Shown one piece after another: positions 3,001-24,824 of a stretch of DNA of 24,824 nt; positions within the stretch are counted from its first letter, which is position 1; each line of letters opens with the position of its first letter. Below the pieces are notes generated by a model. The model saw only the letters and a list, made by a program, of their open reading frames with translations, made no database searches and was not told the origin of the DNA. This stretch comes from Saccoglossus kowalevskii (Eukaryota > Hemichordata > Enteropneusta > Harrimaniidae): contig NW_003142798.1 of the NCBI RefSeq assembly GCF_000003605.2, positions 760,466 to 785,289 of the forward strand, written 5' to 3'. Both the position numbers and the translations under genes were made by a program.

Positions 3001-3631
3001 GCAATTTAGGCGATTGAAAGTCAACTTAGGAGGCATGACCTAAATAAGACAGCCTGTTCTCATCGCAAGTTTATCATTCTCTTTTACATGCTCGGGTATG
3101 GAACTCAATTTATAATAGTAAACAAGCAGTTAAAGAATCTGCATCGCGGTTGCACACACCAACATCGAGTTGACTTGATTTATTTCTCACACGATCTGAT
3201 TGGGTGTAACAAGTCGAGAACTAAAGGGCAAACTTAGTGATTACAATGTTTGCTCCGGAACCTGTGTAAATGACAACCAAAATATGAAATTAACAGACAA
3301 GGCATCAAATGTAACATAAATAGCAAGTCGTCAAACATCGACAAGGACCCTATACTTTTAAAGTAAACAGGTGGATTTTTTTAAAAACAATTTGGTAGAA
3401 GTCTCTGACATTCGATGGCCCAACATCTCAAGCCACCCTCCTTAGGCTTAACATTAACAGGAAGGAGAACACAAGAAGTCATCTGATAAGAAATTAGAAC
3501 ATAGGTTAGACAGAATTTTTTTGTTTGACACTCTGCAGAAAACAATCCCAGTCTATCTATCCATCAAACCACTAGTGTAAACTTCTCTGCTCTATTGGTG
3601 AAATCTAAACCATACGCAGACTACCAAGGGT

Positions 3632-3991
3632 GTCACCGTGGAAACAATATATGAAAAGATTTATTTCTCCATCATTTGGATGTTCAGGATGTTAAGCTTT
3701 ATAACCATAGCAACCACTGTGGTATTATCAACAGAATCAACATGGGAGTGTTACCATTGGGTTCTTATGATAAAACCAGATGACTTTTTGATCACCAACT
3801 GAGTGGTATTAAAAGTCATCTTTTCTGACAGTTTTTTGTTTGTGTCCTTTCATCTACAAGATATTTAAATATTTGGATGGCCATGGAATTACTGAAAGCT
3901 TTTAGAACCAGAATGAAATCTCAACACTGCTCTACATCTCTAGTCATCCAGACATACTCCTGTCACCACCTGATAAAGTTACCATAGCAAC
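3632..3991. promoter_or_regulatory. Cluster of three RFX X-box-like motifs (candidate intronic enhancer)
   Basis: Three close matches to the palindromic X-box bound by RFX factors (GTNRCC-NN-RGYAAC) lie within 360 bases. They are GTCACCGTGGAAAC at 3632-3645, ATAACCATAGCAAC at 3701-3714 and GTTACCATAGCAAC at 3978-3991. The last matches the consensus fully, the first differs at one position, and the middle one has a good right half. RFX factors are known to drive ciliary and neuronal genes. Whether this piece is an enhancer of the Meteorin-like gene is inference from its place in intron 2. Confidence 0.35.
3778..3821. repeat. Short inverted repeat (hairpin)
   Basis: AGATGACTTTT at 3778-3788 is the exact reverse complement of AAAAGTCATCT at 3811-3821, with partial further pairing inside (ATCACC against GGTAT). 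It lies between the second and third X-box-like motifs. It may be a tiny foldback remnant or chance. No target duplication is evident. Confidence 0.4.
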
Positions 3992-4517
3992 AAATTTTAT
4001 AACAAATAAATCAGAACAGAAGTTGGGGGAAAATACGGACTACTGATTATACATGGGATATCTTTTGGACCAGGGTCCTAATATCTGAATCAGGGGCCTG
4101 ATATAGCAATATTCAAATATTTTGTTCAAAATGAGCAAGAAATATTGAACTAAAGTAAAAGATTTATCAGCGTCAGTGCTCAGAAAAGCCATGAATGTTG
4201 AGAAACCCGCTCAGCTCATCTAGGTTTCCCATGAATATCACATTTTCCCACACTGACACACCCACTTCAGAGACACCGATCTCTTTCAAGCGATTCTCTT
4301 TGCTCCCTTTGTGAGCTGGTCCAGGTTGAGCATGTTTGCTTATTCTTCAAGCTTTCTCTATAGAGAGTAGGAGCACATAGCAAGTTCTAATGCTCCTCTT
4401 TGGCTTATCTGTTTTATAGTCATTGTGCTCAAAAGTAAACACTTATGCATTGAAATAAGTTTAAATAGATCTCAGTTGTAAGGACTCAATGAAGAGGCGG
4501 ATGTTGAGGCATTTAAA

Positions 4518-4541
4518 GGGGGAGGGGGAGGAGGCATTGGG
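4518..4541 (+). repeat. G-rich run, possible G-quadruplex
   Basis: Two runs of five G separated by a single A are followed by GG, AGG and a final GGG after a short spacer. Four G-tracts of at least two are available, so a quadruplex is possible on the plus strand DNA. In the minus-strand pre-mRNA it would be C-rich and would not form one. Confidence 0.35.
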
Positions 4542-6677
4542 AAAGAATATTCCACCCCTCTATATAATACACTTATTTCAAAAGAACCCAGTTTATCTAC
4601 CATCAATGAAATCTAACGACAAATTTGTGATTTTGAAATAAATTTTGAATCTTGTTAGCAAATCTTGAATTATTTTTATATATAATAATGTTAAATTTTT
4701 GCTATATCCATTTAATGGTTATTAAATTAGCTGACCCAATTTCATGCCGGGTACATCACTTGAATGGCCTATATATGCAGCATTAAAGGACCCCTAATTG
4801 CGGATGACATAGGCTGAAGCGCTTAAGAAACATACCAGTTAAACCTTGACGCGTCTTTCCATTCATGGAGCATATTTTCTCACAGCCGACTACATATCTT
4901 TGCTATTGTTACACGCCGGCTGCTATTCTCCCATCCCCTCTTCTTCTTAAACTGCAGCAATTTACAAGGAAAACACGGACATAGGGAATCTAATTGTGAA
5001 CCTGTGTGAATGTGTTCTTCCCGCGCTTTCCAGCCCTACGGGTTCGTTCAGATGAATAGGTGAGCTAGAAACGAGGGAACAATATGGACTATTCTTTATG
5101 CACTAAACTGGATAAACTGAATGTAGTACATTCACAAGGAAAACACCCAGGGTTGAACTATATATAATTAACCATCCCCTGGGAAACTGTTTCACTATAA
5201 CCTACACTTGAGATGTTATAATTATTCTCCGTCCCTAATTTCCATGTAGTAATTGGTTGAGTGATAGTTTGCGCATTTCCTCTTCAATGGAAATTAATAT
5301 TATATATTTTACAATATAATTCATCCATATTTAAGTTGAGAATTTCTAACAGGAACTAAATCTTGCAACAAGAAAATTGAAAAAGACTAATGTATTCTTT
5401 GAGAAATGAGAAAGTGGGTTGAATGAATTAAAGTTGAATGCCTTAATTTGCATAAAAAAAAGAGATCACCAAGGCTATCTCATTGATTTGCTACTCTTTT
5501 TTTTTTATGGTGAGTATTGTTTTCAAATTGATTATTTCCAAAGTATTGGGATTCAACGATGATAGCAACTTGAACCCAAACTTGTTTTCCTAACTAGTTA
5601 TTATCTTACTATCTGGACTATGCATCTTATCGGCATTTAAGTGTATGTAAACTCCCACATCCCCGGTGACATGATTTAACATGAATAACTTCTCTGAAGA
5701 CACAGCATCAAGAAAAGCCAGGGCATGTTTAAACATTTTACGTAGAGACAACTTTTACTTCAAATAACATGACCTCTGACCTAAAAAAGTACATCTCCAT
5801 AGAAACACATTTAACACCTGAAAGCTATTCAGTCAGATTGAATCCACTTTACAAGTGTACCCTTTACCCTCCCCTCCTTTGTTTCTTAAGTCATGCTAAG
5901 TCAATCACCTCTTTTAATCGTTAAGATGAAAATCCTGTTACACTACCCAATGCACTTGTCAGTAAAAAGTCTGCTTTCTTTCATTCATAATGTTAGGTAG
6001 ATTACCTTTCACAGTATGAAAGGCTACCAGAGCACACGCTGCTTATCCCATTCCTTTGAAGCCAATGCATTACTTTTCCAACCGAAAAACACTACTCTGA
6101 AACCAGACTATCAACTGGCTAAAGTAAGGTAAAAGGGGGAGCATGAAATCGAAGAACCGATGATCTGCCCAACAGGTCAGAGTCTTATCACCTGACAAGC
6201 AAGAGTATGTAAAACGATAGGCGCTTGCAACAGGTCACTCATTATGCATTGGGCTTATAATACAACTCTGCCCCGCCCCCTTTTGACAAGCAGCCTTTCG
6301 TGCAGTGTATTTGTGGTACTATATGGTCCGAGTGAGCTGCAGAGCTTCGAACTCATTATACAGTGGGGTGAGGCAGTACGCTGTGATGAAAGATATCGTA
6401 ATTTCTCCATTTGTACAGGTGCATTTGGTGCAACTTACAACACCTACTTCAAATTGGAAAATTACTATTGAGCACTGAACTTGATCACTCAGAAGGAGGG
6501 TACAGCTAATTAGCCTAACAATGCAGCTTGACTATTGTCATTAACTGTGTATTGTTGATAATTTCAGGGATAATTCAAACATAGAGAATGACATGTTCCA
6601 GCAGAAACTAAGGGCCAACATGCTTGTACGCATGAACACTGCTACAGAAAACACTTCTTAATTATGGATGAGCTTAC

Positions 6678-7117
6678 CTTCAAACGTATCCCGACTTTTA
6701 CCCTGTTGGTGATGGTTCACTTTTAAATCATACTCAAACGAGACAGTTTTCCTCTTGCCATCCATATTGGGCATGGCTTCTGCAAACAGAGTCGCTCTAC
6801 CATCTCGCGACTCAAAACAATGCGTCCTACTGAGGAGTTCCTTCCATAGTCCCTCATCCTCCGCATTATTATGATCCTTATCCTGGAGTTTGGGATGGAT
6901 CAAATATTCCAGTTTTGTCCGACCTTCTACATAGATGTTTGCACCTGTGAATTTACTGGAAGGTTTGATGCATCCTTGGAAATCCTTTCCCGAGTTTCCA
7001 TACTGAAAAGTTATTCGGATTGCACCATAGGCATAGTCCCAGTCAACTCGGCCCTTAGAGCAGCCCAAGTAGAGTTGTTGTACACTTTTATTATCAGGAT
7101 CCTCAGACAGGCCACTA
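6678..7117 (-). CDS. METRNL: Meteorin-like secreted factor, exon 2 (CUB-like domain)
   Basis: This is the second coding exon of a Meteorin-family protein, a secreted factor that in vertebrates acts on glia, neurites, fat and immune cells. Joined to exon 1 it supplies residues 35-181. Family blocks are clear: SSGLSED, LYLGCSKGRVDW, GAIRITF, the C-I-K-P block, TGANIYVE, and TLFAEAMPNMDGKRKTVSFE followed by YDLKVNH. They match vertebrate METRN/METRNL in order. Cysteines at about 54, 84 and 135, plus Cys30 in exon 1, match the conserved N-terminal cysteines. Asn44-Lys-Ser is a glycosylation sequon. The exon starts after a pyrimidine-rich TTTCATCTCAG acceptor and ends at a consensus GAAG|GTAAGC donor in phase 1. 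About 15 extra, mostly charged residues lie at 113-130 compared with vertebrates. The C-terminal NTR-like half is not in the window. The symbol is by family; METRN or METRNL cannot be separated here. Confidence 0.93.
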
Positions 7118-9694
7118 CTGAGATGAAAGAAATATATAAGCATTAGCCTTCAGTCAGTCCATTATAATAATCTAAAGAGTTAACCATTATAACTCAGTGA
7201 TGATAGATTTTGTAAAATCCACTCAGAGAAATTATTCAGAAGAAGAAAATTTTACAGAAAAAACATGCATACTTTACAGCAGCACCATCATGACCCCCCC
7301 CCCAAGTTTCCAATGGTCAACCCCTGATGTTGTATATCTAGCACGAAGTATTCAGTAAATTTGAACAGAAAATTTAATCTTTGTGAATAGTCTTTTAAAA
7401 TAAATGTAGGAAACAAACAGTTTACATATCATTAGCGAAACGGATATACGAGAAAGCACATTCCTAAAATTTTGAAGAACCACAACTGAAATGTATCGAT
7501 TATTTGTTACATCCATATTTGCTACTGAACAAAACAAGCAGTGAGAATCTTAAACACTTTAGTGACGACAAGAAATCTCATGTCAAAAACATGTCGATGG
7601 ATATTCGAGGCGTCAAAAGGTTGCCCGCAAACTTGAACTTGTCAATCTACATAAAGCGTGTTGTACCGAAAAGCGATGTTGGAATAACTCCTGGAATTCT
7701 AAGTGGTCACGGACGTAGATAATTCGAGTGAGCTCATCGGAGCGACGAAGGTAAATAAACTTCGACGCGATTCGATAGGATTAGAACAATCATCAAAAAC
7801 CCATAGCGCATAAGAATATTATTATTGAACAAAGTTTACAGGAAAATATCATTATCGGCGGAAAACTTTGTTAAAATGTAGGAATGCTCTTCGCCGTTAG
7901 CGAATCCAATGATACCGGTTTCACTCATTAGAACCAATTGAAAAGTTCATCGGAAAATTGCGCTTTCCTCTCAACTGTATTAGTCTCTCCTTTCATAAGA
8001 GCTGATCGGATTTCCCGATTCAATTAGAAATCTTAGACGTCTTCCATTCACACAAATAAAAATATATGTGCGGTCTGCTGGGTTAGCTGGTCTCCGGGTG
8101 ACGGAGCACGCTGAGAATGGTTGTTTACTTTGGGCGTTAGGTGACTTAGTGTTCCAACTTCACACGAAAAAGGGCAAGACAGAAAAGGGCGGGTAATGGT
8201 TACCGAAGACAAACCATGGGGGAGTTCCATGGGAAAATGCGATTTCATAACGCAGTAACAGCTCTCACATATGTAACCAGTTACGCTGAATTCGTCGAGG
8301 GGGAGTAGTGCAGGCTGTTAGCTTATGTGGTTATGTATTTGCAATGTTTGTTGCGAAGCAAGTCATGGATATCTGGTTTGAGCATACAGAACAAACTCAC
8401 AAGGATGCCTTGTAGAACATCTGTGTTTACAAGTTAAATTACACGACTCCTGGTGCTGTTCCAAAACACCTTGATAACATTCACACTCGGCCAATCACTG
8501 AGCATTGCCTCGTCTGGGTCACACACGCGGACCTTTGAAAATTAGAAATAGTTGGCGACGTTCTCAACCGAAGATGTTAATTTCGAACACAGGAGTGAAC
8601 GTTAGCGCTAGTATTCAACTCGAATTTAGTATTTAGACCCAAATTTAACAGTGAAAACCAGTGTGGATGAGACTTTACTTATAGGGCGGTCGTCCTCTTT
8701 ATGTCCGTATTATGGAATTAAATCGCCATGAGTGGAGCTTCCTGCTTCTTTTTTAATTTTTCTCTTTCAACGATGGTTCACACGATTTTTCGGGTGATTA
8801 GCAGACAACGCGGACAGTGACACCGTTTTCCGTGCGTCTGGTGAACATGTCAAACATGTCAATTCCATTAACGTACTTCCATTGTGGCCTTCGTTTAATT
8901 TGCCTACTTTCCCACGCTATCATTCGCATTCGCGTAAAACGTACAGAATCTTGAATTAATCACGCCTTCGTTAAATAGTATCCTTTTAAAAATTACCGAC
9001 CGTTAACGTTTAAAATTAGCGCCTAAGAAAAAAGAAAACGATGGGCTCAGTGTGTGACATGGGTGAGATACCCCACCGGCCGTGAGCAGGGATCAAATGG
9101 GGGTGTCAAAAGGCTTTTAAACAACTTTTTAATTGTGATGGTAACAAAGGTGATACCACTGTTCAAAGGCAGGATCAGCAAAGAGATAACACCTCGCTGT
9201 AAGGGGTCTATCTCGTCCTCTCTATCAACAGGAAGAAAAATATACGCCGAACTTCGGAGGGATGCAAGCCGAAGTCGTTCTAAGTAACACGTCAGTCAGG
9301 TCTCCAATGCAAATGCCAGAGAAGAAAGCCCAAAACAGGTCGTTTTGTGTTCCTCCAGTAGTGCATGGAACAGCGTCTCTCTCCGAATTACTGACTCTCA
9401 ATATAGCCTGTACTTTCTGTACATATTATTGACAGCTACTGTAGCGACTTGATCCGCGTTTCCCTACCAGACACCTCAAAATTGCCACAGACCACATCAC
9501 ACCAAGACCATGAGTCGCATGTAATTGTAAATAGTGCGAACACGTAAACATCGAGATTGATTTACATGCTTGAATAGGGCCCTATTCAAATGATACCTGT
9601 TCGTTCGTCTAGGCAGATCAACGGACTTCATAATTTGTTTTTCAGGAAACGGTCTACTGAGAAGAAAGTAAGCACAGAAATGAAGTTGTCCTAC
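7118..9694 (-). other. Meteorin-like intron 1
   Basis: This 2577-base intron runs from an AG|GTAGGA donor to a CTCAG acceptor and splits a Ser codon (phase 2). The left part, to about 7.4 kb, is CpG-poor like intron 2; the rest is clearly richer in CpG. A run of ten C lies at 7294-7303. Several 60-80 codon ORFs occur on both strands, for example 7504-7722 plus and 9054-9287 plus. None resembles a known protein, and none has the conserved-block look of the two exons. No mobile element was recognised. Confidence 0.75.
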
Positions 9695-9798
9695 CTCCCA
9701 ATCCAGTCGCATTCATCGCTGGTGTAATGACAGTGCACCCAGACAACACAGCTCACGAGGCACCACAGCAGCACGGCCTGGGTACGTACACTCGGCAT
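9695..9798 (-). CDS. METRNL: Meteorin-like secreted factor, exon 1 (signal peptide)
   Basis: First coding exon, 34 codons plus two bases. The ATG sits in a good context (GTGACCATGC, A at -3). It begins MPSVRTQAVLL, followed by a hydrophobic stretch WCLVSCVVWV to about residue 21, a typical signal peptide with likely cleavage near His22-His24. The mature protein then opens with YTSDECDWIG, which matches the vertebrate Meteorin start (Tyr-Ser-x-Asp-x-Cys-x-Trp-x-Gly). The exon ends at AG|GTAGGA, and splicing to 7117 keeps the frame and gives Gly-Ser-Ser-Gly-Leu, as expected for the family. The exon falls in CpG-rich sequence, as the 5' end of a gene with a methylated body would. Confidence 0.9.
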
Positions 9799-10200
9799 GG
9801 TCACACGTAGTAGTAATGCAACCCCGTCATTCATAGGGGTTAGTACCTCTCCGCAGTACACAAGTAAAAAGTTTTTAAAAAAAGTTTGTTTTAAAAACGC
9901 ACGGGGAAAAACTACAACATGCTTCCGACAACAGTAGCTACGATCAACAGCACTACATCACATCTGATATCGTTTTTGAGATGACAGTAATATCCTAGAC
10001 CGCCGGAACGGCAATCCCGAGAAATCAACTTGTAGTAAACAGCGGCGAGAACGCACTCACAAGTGTAGCACACGTTATGTGGGACTGTATGTTATCGACA
10101 AACTTCGGCCCTCCTTCTCTACGCTCCCTGGGCTATACCATTCTTAAATAGGGTGTATAGCTGAACTACTGACGAGTGCTCATTTGAACATTTTCCCGTT
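9799..10200 (-). promoter_or_regulatory. Candidate promoter and 5' UTR of the Meteorin-like gene
   Basis: Reading the minus strand, a TATA-like CTATTTAAG lies at 10143-10151, which would put a start site near 10.12 kb and give a 5' UTR of about 320 bases without any needed intron. The interval is CpG-rich and its minus strand contains a purine-rich block around 10.11 kb. No initiator or bound factor can be proven from the sequence, and an upstream non-coding exon is equally possible. Confidence 0.3.
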
Positions 10201-13200
10201 GAGAATATTTTGAAATATTATTGTTATAGAATGTAGTAGTGATATATTTTACTGGTTCATATTGGGATTGATATTTTTCGACAATATTTTAAAACAAAAT
10301 CTGCCAATTTCTTCAAAAACACGTCTTCAATTGCAAATAGTGGACACCGTATAGTGAATGGAATCGCCCGATGATTGAGCACTGGCGGCCCCGAGCCAGT
10401 CTGTCGTCAATGGGTTTGGCACCCGATTGAGCCCGCGCTTCGGCACGTGCTAAAATCTATTTAGAAACCACTAGTTATAATCAAAAACTTTGCCATTCTG
10501 TTAAATAAATCACTGAAACAACATTTTTCATTAAAAAAATCTCACACAGCTGTGTGTATCGAGCGTCTATGTCTTTTTTTCTGTTTTTTTTTTTTTAGAG
10601 AACAATATTTTGTGTTATACTAGAGATTTCGAACGATGGCAACTTGCCAAGATCACTAGTAACGTCGCACGACATAAACAGCAACCATAACTTGGCCCCT
10701 CACACGCTCAAACGTTTTCACTGTGACCGATGCGATATGAGAGATCTTTAGTGCAGCGTATTCGCTGACAGCTCAATCAGTGTGTTGCGTTATTGTAAAC
10801 TTTCTGACCATGATTGCGATGTCCGATTTCAACAACACAACTTCTCTATATAATGAGTGTTTTAGGTAATCACGTCAATGCATGTAAACCAGCTTCTAGT
10901 GAGGATAATGAAGTTAATTTCGTGACTTCTACAACTCACGTTACTTATAGGAGAGGTGAACTATAGTCGTATTTATACACACATGGGAAACGCAACTGTG
11001 TTGCATTTGTTTCGTAAAACGTGCTCTATTAGACAAACAGACAGAATCTGTAGCAGCACTAATTAACACTTCCACTAAAGGTCAACTCTGCTGTCACCCT
11101 CAATTATTTAAAATTCTAGTCTTGTTTTCCTTACGTAATCATCATTGTTCATAATCCCTAAAATAAACGGTAGTAGCACTTTGATTTTTGATTTCGAGAA
11201 GTCCCTCCCACAACAACAATGCTAAACAGCAGTGGTCCACTGCGCCGATGTTGCGCCTTTAAACGAGGTGATGTAGAACCCTGGGACTACGTCACATTAG
11301 AACACGCGATGTTTATGCTTTTAACCTTTCCTTTGTTTCCACATTGTGTAATTCAGTTATAAAATGTGGATACCTCAATGCCGAAATGATAAGCAGCTAC
11401 ATACGTTACTTAGCAACGTCGTCGAAGAAACCAGAAATCGACCAGGCTCATACGCGTTTTCACTTTTTCCTCCAGCAAATTCTGTGATAAAATAAATATC
11501 CACAAACCTATGGGTTTTGTGACATTCTTTTGCGATGGAAACATAATTCATTAGATTGACATATTTGTAATTCGTTGAATAAAAATAACAATCATATTTG
11601 ATTAATTTATAACTACGGATGTAAACAACGAGTCGAGTGGTTCGGGAATTCGAGAGTAAAATACTCTTTGCGTGGAGGGGTGAAGCACCTGTCACGTCAG
11701 TTTGGCGTGCTTGAAGAGTAAGCCGAGAAAATGATGGGAACGACGCATTTCCGCGTCTCTCAGCCATTCAAGACGAATCACCGCGAAAGCCGCTCGTTGA
11801 TACTGTATTAGACATGAATGTAATTACGCATACAAGAATGAACTGTTGACCTTTCCATTCATTTCACACACACACTTTAGTATAGGTAGATTAATAATAA
11901 TTTAGACAGGTCGCCTCGAACAAATTTGAACAATCCAGTGTGTCCCATGACACTGCACTATAACACCGCCAAAGCCAAACACGTATTTATTTAAATTTAT
12001 TGAATAAATGTGAAGGAACACAAGTGCTGGATTATACGGCATTCGTGTGCGCGCATTGACAATGGCGTGCGCCCCCAAATTGTGCACAATCACAAACACT
12101 TACTGGATGGGTATGGTTTAAGTCACGTGCCTTCATTGTATCCATCTTATTCTGTGTTTGCCATTGCAGCTGGAGGGGTTTTATTTTAAAAAAGTCGTCC
12201 GCTGCCAAGTTACCATCTGTCAGGCAATACCGTGGGATTTTCCCGGGACTTGCCACTCCGCGCGCCGTAGCGACGATAGAGCATATAGAAACTTTGCTCT
12301 TGGTCCGACCATAGTCGACCCATCGACTGGCCACCCAATGGTTGTATCGCATCCACCCGATACACGTTTTTTTTCCTCACCGGTGCTAATTTAGAACGAA
12401 GTTTACGGAGATTATCGTGAAGAAAAATAAGATAGAGTAATTAAGTCAGTGTTTGTTTTAACTAATGAATATGTACAGTATAATAATAATAATAGTTTAT
12501 TACGCAACTGTAATCTGCTGTGGATACAGTAAGGTAAAAATAGTGTAAAATAAAGCAACTAAAAGTAACAAACAAATTTGAAAATTCTAATAACTACAAA
12601 AAATCAGAAAGTAATAAAAATACAGTAAATAAATCAAAGTAAAGGTAAAGGTTTTCCCTAAACCCAGGTAGTATACTTAGAAGTCCGTCATATTTCTACA
12701 TACCGTGTCACCAGGTTTAATGATTGTATGCCTTTTTTCAGTTGTATTTCATTTGTATAGAATCGTTGGTGGAAATGGAAACACCGTGCTGGCGAGTCGC
12801 GACAAGTGTCGCCGTGTCACGGCTTGACATTGACTACAAGTACCGTGCAAATAAAAAGCTAAATAACAAACTACGTACGCATTTTAAGCCGTTTTCTTAC
12901 TCTAATTGCAGTTCTATTTCCACAATCAATTCACTGAATCAATCATGATCTACCGTAAGACTCCAGGTGTGTAACATAGCATAAACGACATCTGAACACA
13001 AATATAATCGAAGGCGTGTAACGCCCGCCTGCATTGACGTAATTTCCCCTGTTTATGTTCCGATAAAAATAACCTAGATGCGCTTACGCGCTTGCTTCGA
13101 TGCGTTCATTGCGACTATTAAAATACACACGTCTCTGTACTTCCACGATTATGGGACCCAAATAAAAGGCTTCACTTTTAAAATAAATAAATAAATAAAT

Positions 13201-15002
13201 AAACGAACGAATGACTGAACAAATGAGTATTTGGCGTAGAAGATTAGTGCCGCGCGTTATAAATGTTTTCAAGTTGAACCTAGTATTAGTAGTATGAGGT
13301 TGAACTTTCTCCGAACGATCAGGGCCAGCGACAGTCACATTCGCGATCAAAGAAAACAAAATGAGAAAGCCATTTATGAGTATTTGTTAGTACGAACTAC
13401 TCATTATGTGTGACTACCTTGGGATCGTTTAAATTATTTGTAATAGGGTAATGATAATGAGCAAACTCCGCCACGCAAACCGCGACAAGCACCCCACAAT
13501 GCCATTGCCAAGCGATTTAGTTACGGCAAGCCTGCCCTCGCTCAAATTACCTTCTGACAGTACTCTTTTGTTTTTCTCCAGCGATGCGTGAAATGCACGT
13601 TCGTATCTAAGGACAATGACCGTTGTTCGAACACCCCTTCAGCTTTGTCACGATTTATAGCAGATCAGTCCTTTCTTTTCAAAATGAAAATTACAAAAAT
13701 AGATGCACTGAGACACGCGCCGACAACATTCTGAGTAGACATACAAATTATTAATGAAGAATGAATGGGGATAGACAGCCAAAACTATACAGTAAATAGT
13801 TGGATGCGGATAAGGCGGAAACGATGCCTCATTAATCTTCTACGTTTTCAAAGACAAACGTTCGTTACGCCCGCAGGCAACATACCTCGGGATTCATCTA
13901 CCGTATAGCGGTTATCTGTTGGGGCTAGCAGGTGCCACTTTAGTTTGGCAAAGCAAAGATAACTGTAAATCTTTTTTATCTGCTCTTGTATAAGTATTTC
14001 GCTAACACACAAAAGGAGCGACGAACCTCGGCTGCGGGCTCACCGTGCCTGCCTCTATATCACAATTGCTCGTCGATGTATACGTGACTGTTCTGTTAAT
14101 TTAATAGTTACATTTATTACCCTCTACAACACAAAACGTCTCAATGGGAGACCGTAGAATTAGGTGGTACAAACATTTTTCCTAACTCGAAAATATACAC
14201 ATCATGACCACTTAACACATTCAAATTAATCGTTAATCATGACTAGAAAGCCACAAATCTATTAAAGTCTGGCTAACAATGATATGGTAAATAAGTAAAT
14301 AAATTGGACTAATATACATGTATCTGCTTTCTACTTGGGATATCGTACAGTATTTGCAAAAACATCACGTGATCCTGGCCCCAACTCATGAGATCTGGCG
14401 TCTCGTTGTCCGATTCAAAGTTACTGATCCCGACGCCCGATTACCGATACTATATCGTCAAAAATTTTGATGAGTGGTGAGCAAAATCTGGCGGGGAACA
14501 ATTCGCAATTCAGACATATATTTTGCTCCCTAAGTCAGATAAGGAATCCTCGTCGTTTTTGATTTGCAGTTTTTTTTTCAAAACAAATTTGTGTATACTT
14601 TATTTTTTTTAATATGACAGTATTTATTAACAGTTATATTCACCATGTTTATTTCATGTACCATACCTTTATCTGTTTCATGGAGAAATTGTGTTCACCG
14701 TTTATCAGACTCGCTGGCTTGTAACATTTTGATCACCAAATTGTACCAACCTACTCTCGGGATGTGTCCTAACACAGTTGGGTTCGAGTGGAATTTAAAG
14801 TGGATGGAACGGAACGTACAATCCGTATAATTCAAGACCATTGAATTTTAAGTTATTTTAAAAAGAAAAACAAGTGGAAAGAAATCTGTACAATTTCAAT
14901 TATTTAAATACGGTAAACATCTTAACGACTCTACACCCCAAACAACTTGACAACACATCTCTTACTTTGAAAACCAATGAAATTGAATTATTGTTGAGAT
15001 AG
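10201..15002. other. Intergenic / upstream interval; no gene recognised
   Basis: CpG-rich, moderately AT-rich DNA between the divergent genes. The longest ORF is on the minus strand at 11375-11767 (130 codons, begins MAERRGNASFPSF). It matches no family I know and turns AT-driven in its second half. An X-box-like GTTACTTAGCAAC sits near 11405, a perfect CACACAGCTGTGTG palindrome near 10543, and E-box palindromes such as ATCACGTGAT near 14365. A (TAAA)n microsatellite is at 13180-13203 and AT-rich simple sequence at 12480-12640. None supports a gene call. Confidence 0.5.
13180..13203. repeat. (TAAA)n microsatellite
   Basis: Five to six uninterrupted AAAT/TAAA units, followed by two CGAA units. 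This is simple sequence with no other feature attached. Confidence 0.85.
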
Positions 15003-15165
15003 TTAATTATGCCTATCATCTCTCTTGGGACATAGGCCACGAACAAGATTCCTCCAACCAGGCCGTTCCTGTGCCAGTTTTTCTACGTCGCCAGGTGTTT
15101 TTTGGACGGCCCCTTTTTCTTCTTCCCTGTGGGTTCCATGCAATGTTTAATATTACAAATTTGGC
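15003..15165 (-). mobile_element. Degraded LINE, 3' end of the reverse-transcriptase ORF
   Basis: On the minus strand one frame reads WNPQGRRKRGRPKNTWRR, the hallmark block near the C-terminus of many non-LTR retrotransposon polyproteins. The following sequence continues in another frame as VEKLAQERPGWRNLVRGLCP then KRDDRHN and a TAA stop at 15003-15005. This is the usual very end of the same ORF (x-x-Ala-Gln-Asp-Arg-x-x-Trp-Arg ... Gly-Leu-Cys-Pro). The roughly 15-20 residues normally between these blocks are missing, so the copy has an internal deletion with a frameshift. Upstream, QICNI and a Trp-Arg-x-Thr-Leu remnant suggest that the relic reaches about 15285. It is a dead, 5'-truncated copy; no polymerase core is visible. 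Clade is not assigned. Confidence 0.75.
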
Positions 15166-16556
15166 GCCGCACGAAAAATCGCACATTTCTTCTATCCAAC
15201 CACCGTGCAGTCGATATACATTTACTGAGCTCCGTGTTCAGTTTATCCACCATACCCAAGAGAGTGCGCCGCCAACGACATTGGGTGAGTAAACAACGAG
15301 TGTCGCAAAGCAGGAAAATACTTATTACCCTTCAGGGCAAACACATACTTTCTCGTCCCATTCCACTTCTACAGTACATCTTGTTTTCCGCCTTTCTCGC
15401 CGCCGGCTGCAGGCTGAACATGCTTCGGCGCAACACAGTTAAAAACAAACTTTTAATAGTCACCATTAAAATAGGCCAAAAAGCGCGTAACTAACAACAA
15501 TTACCTTAAATCGAACAGGGGGAATTGTTGTCTAACTTTGCGTTACTAGTCATAAAACACGACAAACGCAATAAAAATAGTAATGATCAATTGTCACTGA
15601 CATGCCCCCTAAACATTTCGCCATCTTCAAATGGTTTAACGACGGAGCCCTGGGGTGTACGTAATGTCTGGCCCTGCAATGAAGCGAGCTAATGCCAACG
15701 ATGACAACGTCTATGCAAATCGATTATACGTTCACGCTTCCTATATTCAACCAAGTAAAATGTCTTCTATAACAACAAAAAAATGCCAGAGGAAAATAAA
15801 ACAGGCCGTGTTGTGACTTGAAAGGAATGGCAAACGTCCAAGCATGGTGCGTGTGTTAAATTGTGATACGCAGGCGGTCACCCTATCGCGGTAAAGCAGC
15901 TAGCTCCTTACGCAATCGAGCACTTCATTGTAAAGTCACAGACAACGTGCGAAAGACGACCAGTGAACCGCCGATATATCAGTGAGACCCACCCCTCACC
16001 ACACTCGTCAATCGTACAACTTACGAATGGCAATGTTAGAAAGCAATAATATCTCAAACTAGTAAATGAAAACGAAACAAGAAAAACTGTATATTATTAA
16101 ATCTCTGGTCTAATATACAATTGGTCCACCGCCCCTTACAGTTCACATTTAGAGGTATAGGGACACTCCCCATCCCTACAAAAACAATTATCTTTCGCTT
16201 TCATGCACTTTGAATTTTCAAAGTATAGAGTTACAAAAAAATCAACCAAAGGTCACAACGGCCATGTGTTTTGAATTTCTGACTTATGCTACGACGAAAA
16301 CGATAAAATTGGAAGATTCAGAAAACTACCTTGCATATTGTACAGTGAGCAGTTAAGCCTAATTTCCTTGGATACAAAAGGTGTATTGTAAGCTCTGTTT
16401 TTGTTATCATCAATGATTCACGTGATCTTGAAAGAATAATTCTAATGCGTGTATTCGCCGAGAACCCTCATCGCAATCCACAATAATCCAGTCGTTGGAA
16501 GCTATACCCATTGTGGTTGATTTGCCCAACTTTTTTAATGGTTGAGGAAAAACTTA
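15166..16556. other. Intergenic; no gene recognised
   Basis: CpG-rich at its start (30 CpG counted by hand in 15001-15600), becoming less so toward 16.2 kb. The long plus-strand ORF at 15102-15494 starts antisense to the LINE relic and has no protein similarity I recognise, so I regard it as spurious. I see no tRNA-like, repeat or exon signal in the remainder. Confidence 0.5.
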
Positions 16557-16934
16557 AAGGAAACATCAATCCAAACAACATAATGACCCCTAAAGAAAAA
16601 GCTCCACAAATGTAGGAGAATGCAATTGACAGTTTTTTTTATATCAGTTTTCATTCTCTAGATATTCAACTTTTCATCGGTATTATGTTACAGTAGTCGG
16701 CCATCTTGATTCTCAAGCAAAGGATTATGGGTAAATTATGACATCATAGAATCTGTTGTCAGAAACTGACAAAATTATTTCATCTATGACTTCAAAAGTT
16801 GAACTTCAAATTGGCTGAAAGTTGAATATCTAGAGAATGAAAAGTGATATAAAAAAAAATGTAAATTGCATTCTCCTACATTTGTGGAGCTTTTCCCCTA
16901 GAGGTCATTATGTTGTTTGGATTGATGTTTCCTT
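16557..16934. mobile_element. MITE-like element with long terminal inverted repeats
   Basis: The left arm starts AAGGAAACATCAATCC at 16557, and the right arm ends with its reverse complement at 16934. The match continues inward for about 115 bases with only a handful of mismatches. Both arms carry the same GCTCCACAAATGTAGGAGAA core and an identical CTCTAGATATTCAAC block. Between them is about 145 bp of unique sequence with no ORF. Size (378 bp), long arms and lack of coding capacity fit a non-autonomous DNA transposon. I could not settle a target-site duplication from the flanks. The close arm match suggests a fairly recent insertion. Confidence 0.8.
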
Positions 16935-17339
16935 CAAACAAGGTGTAATGGCGGTTCAAATCATGATGTAATATGTACAGTTATGTAACTAATACAATTC
17001 AGGTTTACAGGTTATGTACGCTGTTAAATGTAGCGATTACAGTACCGTCGCGATTATTAATACGGCTTTAGCGATTACACTCCCAGGATCACACGAGGTT
17101 TACGACCAAGAGTGGTTCTTTTGTATTTTGGTATATCCTCGGGGGCGGACATCCGGGCATTTTCACTGCCTGGCAACCCTCACGGTGAAAAAGGCCAAAA
17201 ACTCGCAGAACACGGAACTTGGGAATGGTTGTTGAGACTCCCCTGAACAGTGTAACAAGATTAGCCCTACGTACGTGTGTAACATATATAAATTTAGTTG
17301 TTCAGGATTACTTCAAAGTTGAGTTTGTGTTGTTTTCTC
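16935..17339. other. Intergenic; one unassigned short ORF
   Basis: Contains a 73-codon plus-strand ORF at 17014-17235 (begins MYAVKCSDYSTVA), whose later half is GC-richer than its surroundings. I recognise no domain. It immediately precedes the CpG-dense block and may be part of the same regulatory region. Confidence 0.35.
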
Positions 17340-17820
17340 GAATTTTCACCGGCTCGACCGGCGTTCCACAGCAGCGCGCAATGAGCCCATAGAAATGCAT
17401 GTACAGTGGTGCGCGTCTTAGCAACGTGGAACGTCTGTGACGTAGCTCCGCCCCCGAGAATACGTCGGGCACATCGAGCTCGCGTAATCGCGCGATTCGG
17501 ACGATGAACACAGGTGTGTGTAGTCAGGAACATAATATAAATACCCAATGGCACACATCTGACTCAGTACATAGTAATATCAATACTAGTGATTCAGCTC
17601 AAAATTAGACGACAGTGCGATCTCTAAATTATCTTTGAGTTATGCGACTGTACTACTTCTGCAAGTCGGTACGCTACGCACATCTGCCAAAAGACTCGTG
17701 TAACACGTGTGTAACGCAAAGCCCCACGGGTCAAAGTAATCTAATCTACCGCGTCGCCGTAGCGATAACGATACTTGCTCGGGGATACTCGTCGCCCATG
17801 GTACACGTGAGCTGAGCTAC
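17340..17820 (+). promoter_or_regulatory. CpG-island-like candidate promoter
   Basis: About 23 CpG occur in 17341-17520 and 14 in 17701-17820 by hand count, the densest in the window. The block contains a CRE-like TGACGTA next to a GC box (CTCCGCCCCC) near 17438-17455, a CTTAGCAACG X-box half site near 17418 and a TATA-like TATAAATA at 17536-17543. Downstream lies a 57-codon ORF (17642-17815, begins MRLYYFCKSV) that stays open up to a GTGAGC potential donor at 17807. The direction and the gene served are inferred: it could be the 5' end of the B3GNTL1-like gene or of an unknown transcript. Confidence 0.4.
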
Positions 17821-19067
17821 CGGTCATAAAGTGGATATTTCGATATTATGATTCGTGTAATGCAATATTTTGAAATCATGAAATATAGATAACCACTTCC
17901 ATGGAAACTAGTAAAGTATCATGACCTACAATCTGTGGTTTTGAAATGAAAGCGATTGTTTTTTTTTTTGAAATGTTAAAATGGGCATAAATTATTCACA
18001 TGAATACTAAAATTCATGAGTAACGACGTTTGAAACATGTAGTAGAATGGTATTATACTTTCTTGTGTATTTGAGTAAACAACACTGATTGAGCGACGAA
18101 ATGAGTGCATATATTTTCAGAGAGTACAGCAAAGTACAGTAAATGGAAACAGAAACAAACTTATATTTTTCTACCGGATGTATTTGTGTATTGATATTTG
18201 ACCATAAAAAGGCAGACGATTTCAAAGACTGAAATCTTTACGGTAGCACCAAATCGAGCATAAATAATTCTGAGCATGTCTAATTGTTCCGCCGCGAGTG
18301 TCAGGGACAGCGATTGGGCTCATCTTTTAGAGGGTCTATGTTGGGCTTTATAAGGGGAATGTTTGACTACTGAATAGTTTGAGTCAATTTTGAGAGGAGT
18401 GTCAATTTAGTAAAAGAGACATTAACGGCGGTACTATGTTTGAGTTTACATTCTGGAAAACCACTGACAAGAACAAAACAAACCGGTGTTCCGCGGAAAT
18501 GATTTTGTGTTTAGCTACGGCGGGGGACTCAGGCTGTCACAATGGATTAGCATTGGAGTGTAGCCAGTCACTGCGGTATCTTCGTCAAGGCTTCTTCACA
18601 GGGTCACTGGGCATACATTCAGTATAACATTCCGTGATGATGATTGTAGTCAATGTGCTTTATCTCACCCCGTATTACCATCGTTTTAAGATTTAAACGA
18701 AATACCTTCATGCTACGAGGAACCAATTTTATAAACATTAGTTATTCTTATCATTTTATGATTCACGTTTTTTGATGCATTGTTTCTATTTTAGATTTTT
18801 TGTTCTGGCTGACGGGCCAGGACATTCTTTAATAGATAAAATGCATGGATGATAGTTTACTGGAGAAATTGGCCTAAAAACAAAAGTCATCTCTATAGTG
18901 GCCCGATGATGGCAGTATTTGTTGAAAAGTCGACTAGAAAGTCGCTGGTTTTAATACTGGGGAAGCCATGTGCTCTTCTTGACAATGAGAACAACCGGGG
19001 GGGGGGGAGTCACTCAATATTAAAACCTTACACCATGTGCATTGACACCAGCACATTGACAAACCAT
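17821..19067. other. Intergenic; no gene recognised
   Basis: AT-rich sequence with scattered short ORFs (for example 18436-18627 plus and 18849-19211 plus) lacking any recognisable family signature. The later part of the second ORF is simply the 32-bp tandem repeat read through. A run of eleven G lies at 18997-19007. I see no RNA gene or splice-bounded exon. Confidence 0.5.
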
Positions 19068-19184
19068 ACCCCCTATTGCGGACGCAGTGTAAATTTAGTA
19101 CCCCCTAAAGCAGACATATTGAAGAAAAAACACCCCTATTTCAGACATATATTGAGAACATTCTACCCCCTATTGCGAGGATTC
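19068..19184. repeat. Diverged tandem repeat, 32-33 bp unit
   Basis: Three and a half units start ACCCCCTATTGCGGAC (19068), ACCCCCTAAAGCAGAC (19100), ACCCCTATTTCAGAC (19132) and ACCCCCTATTGCGAGG (19165). Each pairs a C-run plus CTATT with an AT-rich tail. Related sequence recurs at 20596-20640, on the other side of the foldback element. Confidence 0.75.
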
Positions 19185-19519
19185 TTCTTTTTGCACTCAA
19201 GTGGAGTGTGATCAACTCAAACAAGTTACTGTGTAGTATGCAACTCCTGTTGGTGTCATTCTTTGTTTGATGAAGAAAGATGAGAACTATTGACATGATA
19301 GTGAATATGATCATGTATTTGATACAATGCACACAACTTTGCCAGGATTATTATTTCATCAGATACCATTACGCACTTTTATGTTCAGCTCCGAGTGACT
19401 TTGGCATGAATACAGGGAAGAAAACCCAGTAAAAAGCAGGAGCTGAATGCGAATAAGGCCGAGGCGCGAAAGGAGTTTCGGAGAGTTTCGGATGATTCGG
19501 GGGGGGGTGATTTTCTGTA
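19185..19519. other. Intergenic spacer before the foldback element
   Basis: Nothing coding is recognised. It ends in a GC-rich piece with two TTTCGGA motifs and a run of nine G at 19499-19507, immediately outside the left arm of the foldback element. Minus-strand ORFs here begin inside that arm and are products of the repeat. Confidence 0.45.
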
Positions 19520-20421
19520 GGCGATTTATTGTAATCGACGAAACGAAACGAAACGGGAAAACACACATAATGAAAATTAAACTGTAATCAAAATATTTGC
19601 TGAAAATAATAATATTTAATACGCATATGCAGTTTCGCTATTACAGATAATCCGTCGAAAATCTGTAATCAGCGAAACATCGGTCTGACACGCACAATAT
19701 TCACAACTTTCAGACGACACTTGACCAGTATATTTACCTTTCCGTCGTGTATTTAACACCATGAAACATTTGTCGAAAATAACGGGATTTTAATTAGTGA
19801 ATGGTTCGTTTCGCTAATTATAAATAATTGTTTTATGAAGTTTTATACACGACTGAAAGGTAAAAATACTGCTCAAGTTTCGTCCGATAGTTGTAATTAT
19901 TGTACCTGTAAGACCCTTTTTTCGCCGCGTGATTGCAGATTTCCGATTATCTTTAATTAGCGAAACCATGGAACTATTTTTTTTCCATGACTAATTAAAA
20001 TCCCGTTGTTTTCGGCAAATGTTTTAGGGTGTTAAATACACGACTGAAAGGTAAATATACTGATGGAATTGTGAAAAGGTTTCTTATTGATGTCATGGAT
20101 TATAGAAGAGATTATGTAGGTTGGATTTATTTTCTGTATTTACTTTAAGTTCAAAATTTTTTTTTTTCATTTATATAATATGTGCTTTTTCCAATAATTC
20201 TATTGCAGCTCCTAATTACAAATAAATAAATAAAAATACTGGTCAAGTTTCGTCTCCGGCCGCTGCAGTGGTTTATTGCTTAAATATTATTTTCAGCAAA
20301 ATTTTGTAAATATTGTGCGTATAAAACCCATTTTCACTGAATACAGTTTAATTTATATTATGTGTGTTATCCCGTTTCGTTTCGTTCCGTTTTGTTTCGT
20401 TTCTTTGATTACAATAAGCCT
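19520..20421. mobile_element. Multi-armed foldback element, non-coding
   Basis: The left end (TTATTGTAATC, then GAAAC repeats, then AACACACATAAT and AAATTAAACTGTA) is matched by the reverse complement of the right end at about 20340-20417. Further shared stretches include TTTGCTGAAAATAATA. Inside, one block recurs four times. It contains TTGACCAGTATATTTACC, a GTCGTGTATTTAACACC-like stretch and AACGGGATTTTAATTAG. It lies forward at about 19711-19800 and reversed at about 19815-19888, 19990-20075 and, shortened, 20228-20255. A near-perfect hairpin built on GTTTCGCT / AGCGAAAC lies at 19632-19678. No transposase ORF is present. The structure fits a non-autonomous DNA element with nested inverted repeats; the exact ends are uncertain. 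Confidence 0.75.
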
Positions 20422-21800
20422 CCGTTTGCTCGTGTTGGAAGTGGCGGCAATGTCCCGGTGGGAAAGTTCAGGTGGACGTTTGCGGACTGATCGGGGCTAT
20501 GGGTCCGCCAATTTGGGGCCTAGGGCGGTGTATGGGAGTGATTTTTGCAAGAGGGGGCTTACAGCGGGCGCAGCAGCCCTGTGAATATATTTCTTGGGGC
20601 CTATTGCAGACATTAGCATTTTAAAGGGGGGCCTATTTGCTTCTCACGCGGGCCCGCTTTAGAAGGTGAAAAACACCTCGCTTTCCCGCTAAATTTGGAA
20701 CGCACATGGGGTAGTAACAGCATATAGAGTGACCCCGCGGGAGAACAACCTAGTTCTGAAGCACAGTCCTCAGCTAGTAAACTGATATTGTTGAGAGCAA
20801 AGATACTGGATACTGTTTGGAACAAAGAAAGAGTATATTCCTAGTGAACGGTCACCCCGTTCATCTGCGAGAAATGATTCCGGACACATTTTATAGACTG
20901 CGAAACACAAAAGACAAATTTGACCAAGTTACACAAAATAAACAATCTTTGATATTATCAATAAGTATATTGCTTATGTGCAAACTTTTAACTGAATCAG
21001 CATGGACATGAATAAGTTGGCCAGTTTAGAATCACAAAATAATGGTTTTACCAGTCACTATAGCACTTGTATGCAAACCTTTCACTGAATCGAGCAGATG
21101 CTTTATCAAATGATGTGCGTATGAAAGTCGTCATACATTCTGTGTGTTAAGTTTGAATGTAATCAGTCAAAGCAATTCTACGATTTCGGACTTCGTCTGA
21201 AACGGAGACTAAAACAACAGTAGATACTGTATTGTAAAGTACAAATGACACTAAACAGAACGTTTTTACATATGTTAAGTTTTAGATTTTATATTGGAGA
21301 TGCCCTATTTCTAATTTTTTTTTTATAATGACGTTGTAACGGGAGGGGGATCTACATCTACGAAAATCGGGGCTACCGCGAAAAAACAACCGATTTTCTC
21401 GGTAACTCGGCTTTCGACATTTATACACTCCAATAACATTTTATTTTATTGAAAAAAAATAACAACAACAACTAAACAAGGAACTGTATGCAAGTCTACT
21501 GTCGTGAAGATGGGACAGAAGAACTAAGAACTTATCAATTGTTTAAACGTGAATTTTGAATTTTTTAAAAATTATTTGAAAGACATTAAAAACTTCAATA
21601 TAATAAAACGACTGTCAACATTTTGTCTAAGCGATCACAACTCTCTGGTAGTATAGTATGGTAATAATAAAGAATTATTATTAATGAGGGACAGGTTATG
21701 ATTTTATTATAGCGGCTCGGCTTTAGGACAGAGTCGGTGTCAATAGTGCATGTGAAAACAAGTGGTTCGTATGGTTTACGTGTTGAGGGCGCAATCGGTA
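20422..21800. other. Intergenic; GC-rich patch then AT-rich DNA, no gene recognised
   Basis: 20430-20760 is GC-rich and repeat-like (GGGGCCT and GGCCTATT motifs). ORFs here (20276-20584 plus, 20613-20825 minus, 20817-21011 plus) do not resemble known proteins, and the first arises from the foldback arm. A hairpin, GAAAATCGG at 21362-21370 with CCGATTTTC at 21390-21398, lies in a small CpG-rich patch. The rest is AT-rich. Confidence 0.45.
20596..20640. repeat. Fragment related to the 32-bp tandem repeat
   Basis: GGGGCCTATTGCAGACATT is followed about 31 bases later by GGGGGGCCTATTTGC. The CTATTGC-AGAC core matches the units at 19068-19184. This places two pieces of the same repeat on either side of the foldback element. 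Confidence 0.5.
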
Positions 21801-21920
21801 ATGGCGGACACCCTGTACTCTGATATTATTTTATGCTGGGCCTCGTTCGTTCTCACGTCGGTTTTGAAGGCCGTGAGCAAGAATACTTTGTGTAAATGAA
21901 AGCAACTAGGCATCATGGTG
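21801..21920 (+). other. Candidate 5' exon region of the B3GNTL1-like gene
   Basis: The exon at 22255 lacks an in-frame ATG (stop at 22237-22239), so a start exon ending in phase 0 is needed upstream. Two candidates lie here. ATG at 21801 (GTAATGG, G at -3 and +4) opens MADTLYSDIILCWASFV, a membrane-anchor-like stretch; it stays open to a GCC|GTGAGC site at 21872, phase 0. ATG at 21915 (CATCATGG, A at -3 and G at +4) gives Met-Val and a GTG|GTATGT donor at 21920, also phase 0. Joined to exon 22255 the latter reads [14 protein letters not shown], which aligns directly with vertebrate B3GNTL1. The two cannot both be used. A third possibility is the ORF ending at 17806. Confidence 0.25.
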
Positions 21921-22254
21921 GTATGTGTTTCGCAGAGATAGTCATAAATGGAAGAACATGACACTATTGACGTGGTACGTATGAACATGGTATGAACAAT
22001 TCTGGTAGCATTCCTGGACCTAGCTGTGGAATCATAGCCCTATGTTGCCGACCGCATTATTTACGTGACTGACTCTGGCCGGCCCATCTATGTTCGACGT
22101 ACAACTACAAAATTAAAAAAAAGACGTCCAAATGAAATTGTTAGGGCGAAATTCGATTGTAGGTCGCACCAAAGAGCTCCGGAACCGCAGCTATCCTGGA
22201 CCCCGCCAATTTTGCACTCACTATATAATACTTTTGTGAATAATTACTCTCCAG

Positions 22255-22377
22255 ACCATTGTATTGCCGGTTTACAATGCAGAAGAGTGGTTGGACGAGT
22301 GTTTGCAGTCCATATCACTCCAGCCAAAATGTTTTCGTGGAACGATACAACTGTCTGTTTTCAACGACTCCAGTACG
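22255..22377 (+). CDS. B3GNTL1: B3GNTL1-like family-2 glycosyltransferase, first conserved exon
   Basis: A 41-codon exon (phase 0 at both ends) between CTCTCCAG and ACG|GTAAGT. It encodes the opening strand and helix of a GT-A fold family-2 transferase: [19 protein letters not shown], then a basic loop, then [10 protein letters not shown]. Human B3GNTL1 reads closely similar blocks (Ile-Met-Pro-Val-His-Asn-Ala-Glu, Trp-Leu-Asp-Glu-Cys-Leu, Ser-Val-Phe-Asn-Asp-Ala-Ser) in the same order. In this family the Pro-Val-x-Asn and Asn-Asp segments line the nucleotide-sugar pocket. B3GNTL1 is a predicted beta-1,3-N-acetylglucosaminyltransferase-like protein whose substrate is poorly defined. The overlapping 108-codon ORF at 22065-22391 is in another frame and is a shadow. 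Confidence 0.9.
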
Positions 22378-23973
22378 GTAAGTTGGTATGACCTTTAACC
22401 CCACTGTCATCACAATAAAAGAAAATCACTATATTAAGTTTGCACGACAAATTTTACTATTTTCACAACCCTTTCGGCAAATTATATTTCTAATGAGTAA
22501 TGAAAATATTAAAGCGGAGGGAGTCTTCACCTCGCATGCGGCAGACGGCCATAGCGTGTAGTTGTTTATAAACACGCGACTACCCATGAGCCTTTGCATT
22601 TTTAGCGTATGTTGTTATCGTCGCTAGGGACTCAATTATCGTGCGTGCTTTGACAACTCAGTCCGCGTATATGTTTGATAGTGTTTACCACCATATTCTG
22701 TTTGTTATGCTACCATGCATGCCGTTTTAATTTCTCTTGGGAAATTTTACGTGTTCTCAATAAATGTCGGTATCTAACCATATTATTGTTGTAACACTAT
22801 GCTTTAAAAATCTCTGAAACATTATCAAACATTTCAATTCAATAGCTCCATAGACAGGAGTTATTGTTGTTAAGACAAATAATAACTTAGTCAATAAACA
22901 GTGCAAAATGTCAGGTTTTGATTAGTATAGTCATGGAAGGTACTAACAAAAGGAGCCACGACGCATTTGTTCACAAACATTGACAAACATTGGTTTCTGT
23001 TAGCTCTTAGCACCTTCTTACAGTGGATTACGCTAATTTTGAGCATTCGATAATATTCGGAGCATGTTCGGGAAGCGCATATACAAGACTGAAAATGACG
23101 TCCAGTTTGAATACTGTTGTTTCCGGAGATCTTGGCGAACTTTATTGAAGAAGAACTGGTAAACTATCGTGAATCTTTTTCTATTTGTAATGGTGATGTG
23201 ACTAATAATCAATGATTGCCTGTGACAATAAATATTGCATTATTCAATGGTACCATTGTCAGTGCGTGGGTTTGATGCACAAAACTGGGCATCGGCGAAC
23301 ACCACCAAAAAATAGAGTACCGAAAGCAGGGCATGCCTAGACACTTTCTTTGCAATAATATTTTTTTAGGAGTCTTTAGGAATTTTTGCTGTAGACACCC
23401 AAAATCTTGTTGTTGTTACAGTTGCTAATAATTAAAACATGTGAAATCTGTGAAATTAAACGTTCATCTGTTGAATTTCCGGTTGTGAAATACGTATTAT
23501 GAGCTTTCACACCTAAACAAACCCAGTGCGCATGTGTGATGACTGTAGTTTCATAATGCGAATATATTTTATGGTCACATTAAAAAATCAACGATGTTAC
23601 GGTATGTCATATTCCACTACCTTCCATGGTATAGCTAAGTAACTCAAAATTGAAAGGAATTTCAACTATGTCTTTAAGTCACTCTTGTTTTTAAGGGCGG
23701 TGGTCATCATGCAGTCCATGTTTGATGTATTTACAAATATTTTATATACAGTGCAAGCGACCCATATTAATAAAAGAGCATAAACAATACAGTGATTGAG
23801 GCACATAGCTTGGGCTTTCATTCAAATTCAAATGATAACATTAAAAGGGTTAACAGAATAGCATAAATTCAAAAGTTAGGCCATTTTTTTCTTTCAGTAT
23901 TTCCTTACAAACGAAAACCATTGCAATGTTAACTATCATTTTAAATATTGATATTATCAATTACTAATTTCAG
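22378..23973 (+). other. Intron of the B3GNTL1-like gene (phase 0)
   Basis: A 1596-base AT-rich intron with GTAAGT donor and a TTACTAATTTCAG acceptor; TTACTAAT also resembles a branch-point motif. The protein alignment to B3GNTL1 is continuous across it, so no exon is missing. CpG density falls along it. No repeat or ORF of note is seen. Confidence 0.8.
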
Positions 23974-24073
23974 GATACTTCCGCTGAAATATTAGAGTCA
24001 TGGAAACCCAAACTAGAAGATGCTGGAATATCCGTCGTGATAGGGAGTCATCACTCAAAATCACCCTTAGGAG
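23974..24073 (+). CDS. B3GNTL1: B3GNTL1-like glycosyltransferase, second conserved exon
   Basis: A 33-codon exon plus one base. It reads DTSAEILESWKPKLEDAG and then ISVVIGSHHSKSPLG. It follows FNDSST directly, matching the human order Asn-Asp-Ala-Ser-Lys-Asp-Lys-Ser ... Ile-Glu-Lys-Trp-Arg-Val-Lys-Leu-Glu-Asp-Ser-Gly ... Ile-Ile-Gly without a gap. Acceptor TTTCAG and donor GGAG|GTGAGA are good. The 3' phase is 1, and the leftover G joins the next exon to complete Val. This is the helix and strand between the first nucleotide-binding Asp and the Asp-rich metal site. Confidence 0.92.
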
Positions 24074-24621
24074 GTGAGAAATTATGTCAGGTCATTTAAA
24101 TTTTAAAAAATCATGGAATCAATATTATCTGTCCCACTTTGGCTGTTTTACTATTGTACAGACTTTATTGGTTCTTGTCAAGTAGGGGTATTTAATCAGT
24201 TTCCTACCATTAAAATTTAACACCAGATTTCCTTAACTTTATTTTATGCTGTTGCTCACAAAATACAGATAAAAAGATATGAACTATTTTTCACAAAAAA
24301 AATGTGTCAAACACTTTTGAACATTTTTGAGCCATTTAAAGTAATGTCGTTCCCCAAATTTTGTTGGAAACATATCGTCAAAAATGTGTATGTATTTATT
24401 AGATGGGTACTTGTGGCTGTCCTGAAATATTAGGAAATTGCTATTTATTTTATGAAATTATGCTAAAATAATTTGTTTTGGGTAAAAAAATGACTTGTGT
24501 TTGAATTAACAATTAGGTAACACTTTTGAAACACTTTTTCACTCTTATTTGATAATTTGAATGCCTGTGAACAGCCTTAGGTGTTGAATTGTGAATGATT
24601 TTCAATATTTTGATGTTTCAG
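24074..24621 (+). other. Intron of the B3GNTL1-like gene (phase 1)
   Basis: A 548-base, very AT-rich intron bounded by GTGAGA and TTTTGATGTTTCAG. No other feature is seen. Confidence 0.85.
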
Positions 24622-24686
24622 TGGGATTTGCCAAGAATAAAGCTGTAGGTCAAAGTCATGGCAGGTTTCTATGCTTTCAAGATGCA
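24622..24686 (+). CDS. B3GNTL1: B3GNTL1-like glycosyltransferase, third conserved exon
   Basis: A 65-base exon. Two bases complete Val of Gly-Val-Gly, then GFAKNKAVGQSHGRFLCFQD and Ala follow. This matches vertebrate B3GNTL1 (Gly-Tyr-Ala-Lys-Asn-x-Ala-Val ... Tyr-Leu-Cys-Phe-Leu-Asp-Ser). The Gly-x-Ala-x-Asn-x-Ala motif is typical of family-2 transferases, and the final Asp starts the DxD metal-binding motif, whose remaining residues must lie in the next exon beyond the window. Its GCA|GTAAGT donor is phase 0. The exon's last bases belong to a tandemly repeated unit (see next entry). The gene is cut by the right edge. Confidence 0.9.
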
Positions 24687-24824
24687 GTAAGTAATACAGT
24701 ACTGGGACATTGGGCTGACCATTTAGTATATGAAGTGGTGTCTTCAAAGATGCTATAAGTGATACAGGGACATTGGGCTGAACCATTTAATATTTGCTTT
24801 TTTCCCAAGATGCAGTGAGTAATA
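24672..24824 (+). repeat. Tandem repeat copying an exon end and its splice donor
   Basis: Unit 1 holds the exon end and donor, CAAGATGCAGTAAGTAATA, followed by GGGACATTGGGCTGA and CCATTTA. Unit 2 repeats this 68 bases later (AAGATGCTATAAGTGATA, then GGGACATTGGGCTGA and ACCATTTA), and unit 3 begins 60 bases after that (CCAAGATGCAGTGAGTAATA) and is cut by the window end. Unit 2 has lost the GT of the donor. Unit 3 keeps a GTGAGT donor and is preceded by a pyrimidine-rich TTGCTTTTTTCCCAAG that resembles an acceptor. The array may go on beyond the edge. Confidence 0.85.

Follow-up and report, generated by a model that had tools for sequence, protein, structure and literature searches.

Head-to-head Meteorin and B3GNTL1 genes in the hemichordate Saccoglossus kowalevskii: a gene pair probably retained from the deuterostome ancestor

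What can be discerned from one stretch of a hemichordate genome about the age of a gene neighborhood? The window analyzed here, 24,824 nucleotides of Saccoglossus kowalevskii contig NW_003142798.1 (assembly GCF_000003605.2, forward-strand positions 760,466 to 785,289), carries exons of a Meteorin gene on the minus strand and of a B3GNTL1 gene on the plus strand. The two are transcribed apart, head to head, with their recognized coding ends 12,457 bp from each other, and we consider it probable that they were neighbors already in the deuterostome ancestor and have been kept together by descent. The same two families, METRNL and B3GNTL1, stand side by side at human 17q25.3, in an orientation that we take to be divergent as well. 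The original prediction, made from the letters alone, had described this head-to-head arrangement, with about 12.5 kb between the coding ends, in what it took to be an invertebrate; the host is indeed a hemichordate, and the exon coordinates proved right to the base, borne out by splice sites, the solved Meteorin structure 7tl6 and the Pfam family PF00535.

The assignment of the minus-strand gene to Meteorin rests foremost on its second coding exon, for which 7tl6 (E=5.4e-10) was the sole match at E<=1 among 177,635 distinct PDB sequences. Pfam returned nothing over cut-off for the open reading frame (ORF) of this exon, the best score being DUF5675 at E=0.061. The first exon ends in YTSDECDWIG-S before the donor GTAGGA, and the two exons join in phase at GT/AG sites; the donor of exon 2 sits just before position 6678. 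Aligned with human METRNL, they score 190 with 52 of 144 aligned residues identical, whereas none of 500 shuffles exceeded 47; here and below, the human METRNL and B3GNTL1 sequences are approximate. The gene thus shows the order expected of the family, a signal peptide, judged by eye from the hydrophobic start of exon 1, followed by the N-terminal (CUB-type) domain. The C-terminal, cysteine-rich NTR-type half was not found in the window and 100 kb to either side (224,824 bases, 34,155 of them N) by tblastn with METRNL or by motif patterns, nor genome-wide with the human sequence, a query without a positive control. In the 572-Mb assembly, exon 2 has a single match at E<=10, which is itself. 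On its sequence, the locus would be a single-copy pro-orthologue of vertebrate METRN and METRNL, a secreted signaling protein whose 5' half lies in the window; S. kowalevskii would have one Meteorin gene where vertebrates have METRN plus METRNL. It may already be named meteorin-like in public annotation.

On the plus strand, the three joined exons encode 96 residues that match PF00535, the family-2 glycosyltransferase (GT2) domain, at 5.2e-12, over cut-off, and four GT2 enzymes in the PDB (E 8.4e-6 to 3.9e-4). This N-terminal piece scores 307 against human B3GNTL1, with 57/94 residues identical and a shuffle maximum of 51 (n=500). Three further exons, 4.6-5.9 kb to the right of the window end, score 288 against the C-terminal part (52/74 identical; shuffle maximum 48, n=500). 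The gene therefore has both the GT2 domain and the B3GNTL1-specific C-terminal segment, which is covered by no Pfam model. Its middle exons, expected to complete the catalytic part with the aspartate motif, were not found; assembly gaps flank the window, with 3,470 bases at the left edge and 4,478 at the right, where the latter begins. Searched against the assembly, a 97-residue query (one glycine more than the true splice) gave three matches, all of them the gene's own exons. A genome-wide search with the PF00535 profile gave 40 matches elsewhere and none on the B3GNTL1 contig; the division of the domain among several exons there is the presumed cause. As judged from the sequence, the gene would be a single-copy orthologue of B3GNTL1, a family-2 glycosyltransferase, with its 5' half in the window. 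These copy-number searches, for Meteorin as for B3GNTL1, score first-look candidates only, and diverged or exon-split copies could escape them.

Could one of the two assignments be wrong, the Meteorin exons coding for a Meteorin-like fold or the plus-strand exons belonging to another GT2 gene, so that there is no shared pair? Meteorin is marked by no Pfam model, half of each gene is unseen, and a single-sequence structure model of Meteorin exon 2, mostly strands, was too poor for use (mean predicted local distance difference test score 52.9, predicted template modeling score 0.49). However, the match to 7tl6, the alignments far above their shuffles and the C-terminal B3GNTL1 exons make such an error very improbable. 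Because each gene is the sole copy found in the assembly, the two are most simply read as orthologues of the vertebrate pair, and the neighborhood would then be of common descent with the human one.

Table 1. Features of the window (positions counted from its first base).
Feature	Positions	Strand	Remarks
Meteorin coding exon 2	6678..7117	-	N-terminal domain; acceptor tctcag, donor gtaagc
Meteorin coding exon 1	9695..9798	-	carries the start codon, the signal peptide and the first cysteine segment, MPSVRTQAVLLWCLVSCVVWVHCHYTSDECDWIG; aligns with human METRNL
Interval between recognized coding ends	9799..22254		12,456 bases
Inverted-repeat element, MITE-like (miniature inverted-repeat transposable element)	16557..16937		arms 16557-16673 and 16818-16937, 93-94% alike
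Interspersed repeat	17133..17465		further copies in flanks
Candidate first coding mini-exon of B3GNTL1	17798..17806	+	MVH then gtgagc; phase fits, otherwise unsupported; weak
Interspersed repeat, about 1.7 kb	19002..20744		internal inverted repeats; many copies, 211 matches in all with 39 of 3631 candidates scored
B3GNTL1 exon A	22255..22377	+	in-phase GT/AG splicing; GT2 match together with exons B and C
B3GNTL1 exon B	23974..24073	+	in-phase GT/AG splicing
B3GNTL1 exon C	24622..24686	+	in-phase GT/AG splicing; gene runs on rightward past the window

How, then, did the two genes come to lie together? The probability that chance alone makes a given pair of genes both adjacent and divergent is about 1.5e-5, or 3.4e-4 if they are confined to a shared chromosome, figures that assume 34,000 genes and 23 equal chromosomes. 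Under descent from the deuterostome ancestor, two functionally unrelated genes would have inherited their adjacency, and the linkage would need no further explanation than that no break in a conserved chromosome has separated them. The adjacency of human B3GNTL1 and METRNL at distal 17q25.3, which the original prediction had given, is confirmed by published papers, which place METRNL on the telomeric side with no coding gene beyond it.

Several points weigh against a common origin of the arrangement. The S. kowalevskii pair has recognizable neighbors other than those of the human pair: to its left lie an IQ-motif ORF (2.6e-11) and an ORF with a C1 domain (1.7e-11; E=2.2e-12 to the C1 domain of diacylglycerol kinase delta in the PDB) and a diacylglycerol-kinase domain (DAGK_cat, 0.0033, below cut-off), and to its right an F-box ORF (1.4e-7); we take none of the three to be among the neighbors of METRNL in vertebrates. 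Profiles for FN3K and TBCD gave no match, and neither result is informative for split exons, the TBCD search also detecting 0/14 controls. Under the same assumptions, between 0.15 and 3.4 such pairs are expected by chance per 10,000 neighbor pairs, and this pair was noticed, not chosen beforehand. Chance is thus unlikely for Meteorin and B3GNTL1 themselves and not negligible for some noticed pair. Finally, the comparison spans S. kowalevskii and human, with no intermediate lineage.

The differing surroundings would also suit an adjacency that arose twice, once in hemichordates and once in vertebrates, through rearrangements inside a single ancestral chromosome, and with the assumed gene numbers chance should produce a few such pairs across a genome. 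However, the chance per pair is small and the orientation, as we take it to be in human, agrees too, which leaves this an improbable account. The neighbors resemble IQCE (human chromosome 7), DGKE (17q22) and FBXW10 (17p); DGKE and FBXW10 would be consistent with a linkage group of chromosome 17, and IQCE would not. Among ten neighboring ORFs, seven had no Pfam match over cut-off, and NCBIfam found none in the three searched.

A third gene between the two, which the original prediction had named as evidence against itself, was not recognized. None of the 47 ORFs of at least 60 codons touching the interval passed the Pfam cut-off (three were sub-threshold, at E 0.026, 0.026 and 0.04), the window holds no Rfam family and no tRNA (ARAGORN, bacterial code), and a codon-usage scan, trained on 13 exon stretches of the same region and thus a guide only, found no further gene; short-exon or family-less genes could escape these searches. 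An ORF at 15019-15237 on the minus strand, which we take to resemble the tail of a non-LTR (long terminal repeat) reverse transcriptase, is without a Pfam match. The candidate mini-exon in Table 1 is one of two that a strict donor pattern gave.

Does the interval hold the pair together? The original prediction had suggested that shared regulatory DNA, or enhancers of one gene in the introns of the other, perhaps does so. In such a regulatory block, enhancers of Meteorin would lie in the interval or in the introns of B3GNTL1, making the latter an inseparable bystander. A developmental secreted factor next to a housekeeping-type enzyme fits such a bystander pattern, and the interval shows no CpG depletion where both gene sides do (observed/expected 1.12, versus 0.67 for 1-9694 and 0.71 for 22255-24824), as expected outside methylated gene bodies. 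In chronic lymphocytic leukemia, three of four METRNL-associated IGH translocations break within B3GNTL1, with METRNL upregulated in the single case examined; these breakpoints show only that METRNL can be reached by foreign enhancers placed within human B3GNTL1. However, the ratio is equally high in most bins at 32-60 kb and is therefore no mark of regulation, and interspersed repeats make up about 2.1 kb of the interval (at least 2,076 bases in the two repeats of Table 1, with 39 of 3631 candidates scored). We regard the block as rather improbable, and clearly less likely than plain descent. Slightly more doubtful still is its stronger form, in which Meteorin would be deuterostome-wide and control elements in the interval or the B3GNTL1 introns would have tied it to B3GNTL1 ever since the deuterostome ancestor.

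The CpG landscape may in turn say something about the genes themselves. The ratio is 0.19-0.43 over the remainder of B3GNTL1, rises above 1 again beyond 32 kb, and lies at 0.25-0.73 in every full bin from -26 to 8 kb. In the 100 kb on each side of the window, CpG-poor and CpG-normal stretches alternate sharply, apparently tracking gene bodies. Read as methylated gene bodies, the poor stretches would put the end of B3GNTL1 near 31 kb, the site of its last exon. They would also imply a transcribed unit reaching far leftward beyond the window, and the missing Meteorin exons may lie there.

Other observations concern the sequence in and around the two genes. At 24671-24824, the end of exon C and its donor seem by eye to recur some three times (caagatgcagtaagtaata-like) before the gap is reached; Tandem Repeats Finder reported no such repeat there. 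A local tandem duplication may have broken the assembly at this point. Intron A of B3GNTL1 contains a repeat some 140 bases long (22504-22648), to which four sites in the flanks are 84-87% alike. In the flanks, the joined region 58100-58699 (L015-L016) holds a frame that by eye resembles a LINE (long interspersed nuclear element) reverse transcriptase, interrupted by a 13.7-kb gap. Elsewhere in the assembly there are many long, intronless GT2 frames of about 500-600 amino acids (L001-L008, on contigs C1762, C4660, C258, C1466 and C4511, with several on C4660), a possible lineage expansion; the protein of L001 presumably is akin to a beta-1,4-N-acetylgalactosaminyltransferase.

The mitochondrial genome of the same assembly reads, by Pfam, atp6, cox3, nad4L, nad4, nad5, cob, nad6 (minus), nad2, nad1 and cox2; cox1 is inserted between the last two, in minus orientation. 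Codon counts over 12 genes are 46 AAA, 4 AGA and 0 AGG. Relative to Balanoglossus, S. kowalevskii is described as having COX1 inverted and ND1 or ND2 moved, with AAA coding for lysine and AGG absent (PMC3121625), and nd5 adjoins cob in both enteropneusts (PMC2697986). By mitochondrial gene order and codon use, the window is thus of hemichordate origin.

What does the locus mean for the Meteorin family? A 2025 eLife study states that, amphioxus and tunicates excepted, metrn and metrnl could not be found in invertebrate genomes; its authors propose an emergence of the left-right role of Meteorin during chordate evolution (PMC12316458). The S. kowalevskii gene is of the same family as the amphioxus and tunicate Meteorins and lies outside the chordates. 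Its N-terminal half being present in a hemichordate, a non-chordate, Meteorin therefore predates the chordates, contrary to that study. A literature search found nothing on the synteny of Meteorin or B3GNTL1 or on Meteorin evolution in hemichordates, and papers on hemichordate genomes or metazoan microsynteny may list the pair. With the hemichordate gene, this family of hormones and neurotrophic factors acquires an origin earlier than the chordates, and a chordate origin of its left-right role becomes testable in a non-chordate animal. For fast-evolving genomes, the neighboring B3GNTL1 offers a positional handle for locating Meteorin, and in the genome of S. kowalevskii the alternation of CpG content could mark transcription units. 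The pair itself, probably retained by descent, is a simple case for studying why some gene pairs persist for more than 500 million years.

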